Source: Lachnospiraceae bacterium
GTDB taxonomy: Bacteria > Bacillota > Clostridia > Lachnospirales > Lachnospiraceae
Assembly (NCBI GenBank): GCA_900751785.1
Contig: CAADSM010000057.1
Coordinates: 1 to 17,735 of the forward strand
Direction of reading: 5' to 3'
DNA length: 17,735 nt
Positions 16,730-17,735 of this stretch are shown here, in pieces (the first letter of the stretch is position 1; every line of letters starts with the position of its first letter). The notes beneath the pieces were generated by a model. It saw nothing but the letters and a program-made list of their open reading frames with translations. It was not told where the DNA came from and ran no database searches. The translations under genes and the position numbers were made by a program.

Positions 16730-17431
16730 ATGACAGTTTCTGAGATAAAAGAGCGTCTCTTAAGCCTTGCGGAGGACGATTACAAAGAATTTAATCAAAA
16801 GCTGCTTCCAGGGGTGGAGCATGTGTTAGGGGTACGTCTTCCTGCCATGAGAAAGCTTGCGAAGGAAGCAGCAAAGGGAGATTTTCGCTCCTATCTGAAT
16901 GAAGCACGGAAAGCGGTCGGTCCGGATTCTCTCCACGAAGAGATCATGATGCAGGGTCTGGTCATTGGATATGCGAAAATGGAGCGTGAAGAGCGCGCGG
17001 CATATCTCGATGAATTTGTCCCGAAGATCAAAAACTGGGCCGTGTGCGACAGCTGTGTCACCGCATATAAGTTTATGGAGAAAGAACCGGAGTACTGGTT
17101 TGGCTATCTCCGGAAATTCCGTGACAGCACGGAAGAATTTGAACTGAGGTTCATGATCGTTGCGATGATGTCACATTTTGTGGATGACGCGCATATCGAC
17201 GAGATCCTCAGATACTGCAATGAGATCAGGCACGACGGGTATTACACGAAAATGGGAACTGCCTGGACTGTCCAGGTGTGCTATGTGAAATTTCCCGAAA
17301 AGACAAGACGTTTTTTGGAGACAGATAAGATGGATGACTTTACCCATAATAAAGCGATCCAGAAAATACGCGAATCCTACCGGGTGAGCAGGGAAGAAAA
17401 AGAAGAATTGAATCTGCTGAAGCGGAGGTAA
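16730..17431 (+). CDS. AlkD-family DNA alkylation repair glycosylase
   Basis: The 233-residue, all-helical HEAT-like protein matches AlkD, which excises N3- and N7-alkylated purines. Trp103 and Asp107 in NWAVCDSC and Trp179 in GTAWTVQVCY reproduce the Trp109/Asp113/Trp187 set of Bacillus cereus AlkD with the same or nearly the same spacing. Further typical stretches are LGVRLPAMRKLAKE near the N-terminus and FTHNKAIQKIRESYRVS near the end. The ribosome site is weak (GAGAAG, 16719-16724). It starts 18 bp after nfnB with no terminator between, so it is probably read from the nfn promoters at modest level; a functional link to NfnAB is not evident. Confidence 0.92.
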   Translation: MTVSEIKERLLSLAEDDYKEFNQKLLPGVEHVLGVRLPAMRKLAKEAAKGDFRSYLNEARKAVGPDSLHEEIMMQGLVIGYAKMEREERAAYLDEFVPKIKNWAVCDSCVTAYKFMEKEPEYWFGYLRKFRDSTEEFELRFMIVAMMSHFVDDAHIDEILRYCNEIRHDGYYTKMGTAWTVQVCYVKFPEKTRRFLETDKMDDFTHNKAIQKIRESYRVSREEKEELNLLKRR

Positions 17432-17508
17432 ATTCGGAGTTGTCGGCGGAAACTTCTGGATGGATTAACGTCCGAAACCGGCAGGGCAGAGAGAAAATCG
17501 AAGACATA

Positions 17509-17721
17509 TTCTGAGAGGAGGGGCGGGGGATCCAAGCTCCGTTCCGAAGGGTAAGAAAAGCTAAAAGCTCCGAAAGGTGGCTAAAAACAATCTGAAAAGC
17601 AGCACAACTCGCCATTGGCTCAAACAGTGCTGCTTTTCAGATTAACGCCATCTTATGGAGCTTTAAGATTTTCTAGACCCTTCTCCAAAGTCGCCGGGAT
17701 CCCCCGCCCCTCATCTCAGAA
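17509..17721. repeat. 213-bp near-palindromic element (long hairpin; MITE-like or structured RNA)
   Basis: Four nested complementary blocks share almost one centre near 17615. Outer arms 17509-17533 and 17697-17721 pair over 25 bp with one mismatch. Arms 17546-17571 and 17657-17683 pair over most positions, with three mismatches, a G-U wobble and one bulge. GGTGGC (17576-17581) pairs with GCCATC-side bases 17647-17652. Inner arms 17589-17605 and 17627-17643 are a perfect 17-bp pair around a 21-nt loop. No ORF with recognisable content lies in it, and no clear target duplication flanks it. The rest of the gene-free stretch (17432-17508) holds only a 6-bp pair, TTCGGA/TCCGAA, and nothing else I can support. 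Confidence 0.8.
17583..17643 (-). terminator. Inner hairpin with a U-tract on the minus strand
   Basis: Read on the minus strand, the perfect 17-bp inner stem (17627-17643 with 17589-17605) is followed almost directly by GTTTTT (complement of 17583-17588). This could terminate a convergent gene lying beyond the right edge. On the plus strand no U-tract follows the stem, so it is not a good terminator for the alkD-type gene. Confidence 0.4.
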
Positions 17722-17735
17722 AGGCTGTCGCATCC

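Follow-up and report, generated by a model that had tools for sequence, protein, structure and literature searches.

A near-palindromic, probably mobile element downstream of alkD in a Lachnospiraceae bacterium and its relatives in Clostridia

Introduction

What is the long near-palindrome that directly follows an alkD gene at the end of a Lachnospiraceae contig, and is it mobile DNA, a structured RNA or a module of gene ends? The stretch of DNA analysed here, hereafter the window, comprises the 17,735 nucleotides of contig CAADSM010000057.1. A first-pass annotation, made from the letters alone, described a 213-bp hairpin at 17509–17721 and suggested that it could be a MITE mobilised by a transposase encoded elsewhere, a substrate for a recombinase or for single-strand transposition, or a structured non-coding RNA. 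We examined the hairpin itself, its copies in other genomes, the manner in which its arms remain paired and the genes beside it; alkD and the parts of the element in the window are given on the forward strand.

Results

The hairpin is real and longer than first described

The near-palindrome at 17509–17721 is real: positions 17500–17735 fold at −129.1 kcal/mol, compared with a mean of −64.95 (sd 5.03) for 200 shuffled sequences (z −12.75), none of which folded as well (0/200). The same fold contains 76 arm pairs within 17509–17721 (79 counting three in the loop), close to the 'about 70' of the first-pass annotation, and the finer anatomy that it gave is reproduced. The outer arms (17509–17533 and 17697–17721; 25 nt each) are 96% complementary with one mismatch, the inner stem (17589–17605 with 17627–17643) is perfect over 17 bp, and the loop at its apex has 21 nt (17606–17626), reading AACTCGC-CATT-GGCTCAAACA. 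Also as claimed, no protein gene is recognisable in the element copies read.

The limits 17509–17721 proved too narrow. The ORF named alkD by the first-pass annotation (233 aa, 16730–17431; ORF table and relatives) ends with the stop codon 17429–17431, which forms the left end of the element, and in aligned copies the right arm continues beyond 17735. Because the copies in G007 and G001 reach a stop codon on their left and, on their right, go beyond the point at which the window ends, we take the element in the window to run from 17429 to the cut at 17735 (alignment with L001, L061–L068 and others). Its outermost left arm (17432–17508; alignment and fold) has its partner beyond the window end, where it is visible in the G007 and G001 copies; in an intact relative, the G007 copy L062, the fold spans 365 nt. 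Nor are the mismatches simply scattered, since several belong to internal loops whose sequence is shared by copies in other genomes. From copies and fold, the outer internal loop sets GTTCCGAAG (17541–17549; GGTTTCGG-like in other genomes) opposite CTCCAAAGTC (17683–17692; CTGCAAAGTC-like in other genomes), and in many copies the outer internal loops resemble GTTTCG opposite CTGCAAAGTC. The conserved internal loop has CTAAAAACAA on its left side (17581–17590) and TTAACG on its right (17642–17647). Elsewhere in the window, an ORF at 2114–2461, MazF/EndoA-like by eye, lies 3′ of an alanine racemase-like ORF.

Copies are dispersed among related genomes

Further copies, which the first-pass annotation had proposed seeking, were found, as were alkD loci without the element. 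Amongst 18 alkD loci in named genomes, blastn matched the hairpin at one (L001; 85% identity over 218 nt), where it lies directly 3′ of alkD as in the window; at L013 and L014 such an element begins after alkD just before the contig ends, as judged by eye and with no confirmation from the model. In four other alkD relatives (L002, L004, L009 and L011), the site that holds the element in L001 is a short stretch of ordinary sequence. G001, the genome of L001 and the closest relative, contains 14 matching stretches, both strands of the palindrome being counted, after alkD and elsewhere. More widely, the window query matches 18 of 195 relatives' genomes. R1, a covariance model built from 22 copies and covering the inner 123 positions, has matches in 29 of the 397 family genomes searched; R2, built from 25 copies of greater diversity, has them in 39 of 392 genomes at the level of the order and in 17 of 398 at that of the phylum. 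Each of these tallies includes G001, and copy numbers within genomes are lower bounds because four candidates per genome were scored in the search with the window query and at most eight in those with the models.

Copies at other loci exclude the case that would have spoken against mobility, a solitary copy retained only next to alkD; a flank specific to alkD was likewise rejected, given these copies and several alkD relatives without the element. We see multiple dispersed copies that lack a protein gene, as in MITEs, with lengths of 200–365 nt. Hairpin queries gave no match in phages and, in plasmids, nothing apart from one 23-nt chance match. A second repeat, a hairpin around a GGCACTTAGAGCGCGTCTTTTGCGCTCTTA-like sequence (L078:1416–1593), occupies the same intergenic gaps as the palindrome, and similar stretches lie 3′ of the hairpin in L072, L073, L076 and L077.

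Insertion repeats indicate movement

In G104 and G493, two relatives with 6.9-Mb genomes, the element measures 287–291 bp and ends in GTTACAGTTC or GTAACAGTTC. An earlier, loose parse resolved 50 of 52 core matches there and gave 37 repeat calls, but as some of these lay at non-canonical ends we relied on a strict test in which the ends are set solely by GTWAC on both sides, for which 24 of the 52 core matches qualify. Exact 8-bp direct repeats flank 15 of these 24 copies, compared with 0 of 1320 shifted controls, and the other nine have a repeat with 1–8 mismatches. The element moves, as these direct repeats in G104 and G493, the target site duplications of MITEs, attest; in the window's own clade no clear insertion repeat was seen. 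In G003, an 873-bp stretch that includes the hairpin occurs at two places, 99% identical and with different flanking genes.

The sequence TAA-ATTCGG at stop codons had prompted us to consider insertion at a TA target (IS630-like); this was rejected, as relatives have TAG or TGA there and the G104 and G493 copies show 8-bp repeats. The terminal sequences GTTACAGTTC and GTAACAGTTC recur on shorter G493 repeats, and no transposon with such ends was found. Shorter repeats of approximately 50–150 bp, some of them near-perfect palindromes, are present at L285, L286, L287, L288, L291 and L295 of G493 and at L267 and L268 of G104; they have the ends GTAACAGTTC/GTTACWGTTC in common with the 289-bp element and lack its core. 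A further genome of 3.3 Mb, G733, contains 36 exact apical motifs, several of them at the ends of contigs, as would happen if the palindrome interrupted assembly.

An unpaired core is conserved on differing stems

Alignment A3 comprises 25 of 34 representatives; eight loci judged degenerate or doubtful had been removed manually. Its 25 copies are invariant at AACTC, at TCANACA, at two A's of CTAAAA and at AAC of AACGC, and AACTC..TCANACA is matched, on stems that differ, at 21 of the 23 loci checked after the model searches. Among 299 phylum genomes, 12 contain the exact motif AACTCGCTNCGCTCARACA and none contains its reversed control; of the 35 occurrences examined, 34 have 15 or more pairs around them. 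G001, whose loops are longer, is without the exact motif. Copying of one arm from the other would erase mismatches, yet these unpaired motifs persist, from which we infer a protein that recognises the folded DNA.

In viral contigs, a looser motif pattern gave 30 stretches, none with an R1 match (R1 gave none in L002–L018 either). A stricter pattern gave 87 stretches, and among 79 occurrences examined 42 lie within hairpins of 15 or more enclosing pairs and 37 do not. The apical motif tops hairpins in the viral contigs L353, L371, L380, L417 and L427; GCTAAA and TTAACGC flank it in the last four, and in the L425-type group the motif lies outside a hairpin context.

No transposase is linked to the copies

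Inspection of 214 loci revealed no transposase evident near the copies, and the recurrent neighbour families among their 695 ORFs look like ordinary genes on a reading of the largest 25 clusters. At L284 of G493, where a pair of ends spans 2.5 kb, no transposase was found on reading the ORFs. IS66 was considered as the mobiliser and rejected: it was found in three of the five carriers tried, G001 and G007 being the exceptions, and no IS66 copy has matching ends. A Y1 transposase of the RAYT kind was rejected also, since Y1 was found in 11 of 13 carriers tried (the exceptions being G496 and G1137), R2 matches lie beside only one of 30 Y1 loci (L478 in G1093), and RAYT flanks are unrelated to the element; the co-occurrence expected of a RAYT partner is not what these genomes display. 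In G007 and G001 (L463 and L464), a single RAYT-like Y1 ORF of 275 aa, stop to stop, has on either side GGGGACGTAG palindromes that bear no relation to the element, and lies between ORFs that look, by eye, like those for glycyl-tRNA synthetase and an aminopeptidase.

The MITE suggestion of the first-pass annotation is supported by the dispersed copies, the alkD loci without the element and the exact 8-bp repeats in two related genomes, although no transposase was linked to the element. Its suggestion of a recombinase or single-strand transposition substrate may also hold: unpaired motifs are conserved, but no enzyme was linked to them.

Pairing and placement under alternative readings

If the element were a structured RNA, either a long 3′ UTR hairpin or a small RNA, its fold would be selected, it would have spread by duplication, and its stems would covary because the RNA must pair. 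The compensatory changes that the first-pass annotation proposed looking for are indeed abundant. In A3, two-sided changes occur at all 43 of 43 pairs (333 cells, compared with 96.5 in shuffles), with a covariation of 0.810, whereas sliding the structure gives 0.179 at most. In a second alignment, A1 (22 of 27 copies), 25 of 28 pairs have such changes, but the pair types are not exceptionally many, 121 of 500 shuffles reaching the observed number. Such strong covariation, together with conserved loops and a like-oriented upstream neighbour in 69 of all 98 rows (by a crude ORF caller), favours an RNA. However, were RNA from the read strand selected, G.U should outnumber A.C, and this is not observed. 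In the outer arms of 73 representatives (drawn from 115 copies, 100 of which have at least 25 outer pairs), G.U numbers 32 and A.C 46, beside 54 other isolated mismatches (p 0.14); in the inner stems of 44 representatives (from 91 copies), the counts are 20 and 28 (p 0.31), some mismatches recurring at one core position. Relatives were collapsed in both counts, and the absence of a G.U excess makes the pairing look DNA-based rather than selected in RNA. With relatives not collapsed, A.C exceeds G.U by 31 to 12 in the G493 and G104 copies, and by 19 to 8 in a recent burst within them; as A.C is G.U on the other strand, an antisense RNA may be read there, a point in favour of RNA. Against it stand the insertion repeats of G104 and G493, copies between divergent genes (12 of the 98 rows, same caller) and the outcome with Rfam, in which no family reached its cut-off in 17400–17735 or in 15 related loci tried, and matches to FMN and S4-Clostridia adjoin the hairpins without falling inside them. 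The RNA reading of the first-pass annotation is therefore not supported, and we consider it improbable.

A recent burst of the element offers a view of how pairing is kept. Among its 15 copies with near-identical arms, 13 of which have mismatch-free insertion repeats, differences from the consensus are two-sided in 42 cases and one-sided in 31, some of the two-sided changes being common to several copies. Arm-to-arm template switching is described for other hairpins in two reports (PMC8794818, PMC8604942). The two-sided changes in recent copies fit such switching, whose occurrence here we infer; strong selection on DNA pairing would yield a similar pattern. Programmed diversification of copy-specific arms was also entertained and dropped, since copies sharing arms were seen.

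Placement relative to genes bears on another reading, in which the element is a large terminator working in both directions, or a module at the 3′ ends of convergent genes, and stays where it is, homogenised by gene conversion between loci instead of being transposed. In L001 and L042–L080, a stop codon lies 105–131 nt before the core in 26 of 32 rows (orthologous loci counted separately), and 17 of the 32 rows were called convergent, by an ORF caller crude enough that orthologous loci are sometimes classed differently. At L001, neither of the two convergent genes has lost its C-terminus and each ends in TAA. The space between their stops is taken up entirely by the element and a second, degraded hairpin; in alkD relatives it is short and ordinary. 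At one locus (L072, L073, L076 and L077) the element is present in four genomes. All this is as a gene-end module would have it. Such a module is nevertheless hard to reconcile with the G104 and G493 copies, which also occupy gaps other than convergent ones and have insertion repeats, or with hairpins that, in the copies read, end without a T run, and we judge it unlikely. The stop-codon placement in the window's clade is explained neither by plain insertion nor by gene conversion alone.

Discussion

Our analysis favours the reading that the feature in the window is a cut-off copy of a non-autonomous, MITE-like mobile element, palindromic over nearly its full length and without a protein gene; we consider this probable. 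In the mechanism that we propose, an enzyme encoded elsewhere would move the copies in trans. The palindrome would fold once it is single-stranded or extruded, and that enzyme, or a helper, would recognise the fixed motifs of its apical and internal loops. Pairing of the arms may be restored by arm-to-arm template switching during replication, such that the arms would drift together whilst the motifs are held by selection.

A bolder form of this proposal is that mobile palindromes throughout the phylum are defined by a folded-DNA core (the AACTC..TCARACA apex and the CTAAAA/AACGC internal loop) and not by their ends: a trans-acting enzyme would read the core, lineages would freely swap terminal sequences and stems, and the arms would be copied from each other. 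We regard this extension as speculative, possible but rather doubtful.

Known systems resemble the element in part. Bacterial MITEs such as ERIC (reviewed in PMC10969869) are similarly short, devoid of a protein gene, dispersed and mostly intergenic. The likeness is closest for the G104 and G493 copies, with their terminal inverted repeats and direct repeats. In contrast to the anatomy of ERIC and other MITEs, our element is palindromic over nearly its whole length, its arms differ between lineages while the unpaired core is kept, its terminal sequences vary from lineage to lineage, and no parent transposon was found. The attC sites of integrons are likewise folded sites in which unpaired features are conserved while the stem sequence varies, but they would not be expected to have insertion repeats such as those of the G104 and G493 copies of the element. 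REPs and REPINs are repeated extragenic palindromes as well, some of them in head-to-head pairs, but a REP measures 20–40 bp (PMC3733652, PMC6006769), has stems of 5–13 bp and bears a GTAG or CGTC tag, as against the 200–365 nt of our element.

A literature search found no description of the family or its motif, and three papers with short matching strings were unrelated by title; as subscription papers were mostly outside the scope of the search, novelty is provisional. The element nonetheless constitutes a repeat family widespread in Clostridia, many of them gut Clostridia, that lies below every Rfam cut-off tried and was not found described. It also cautions against taking very strong covariation as proof of a functional RNA: here it comes with no G.U excess and with two-sided changes within a recent burst, as template switching in DNA would give. 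Finally, the unpaired motifs kept across lineages provide concrete bait for the putative hairpin-binding enzyme.
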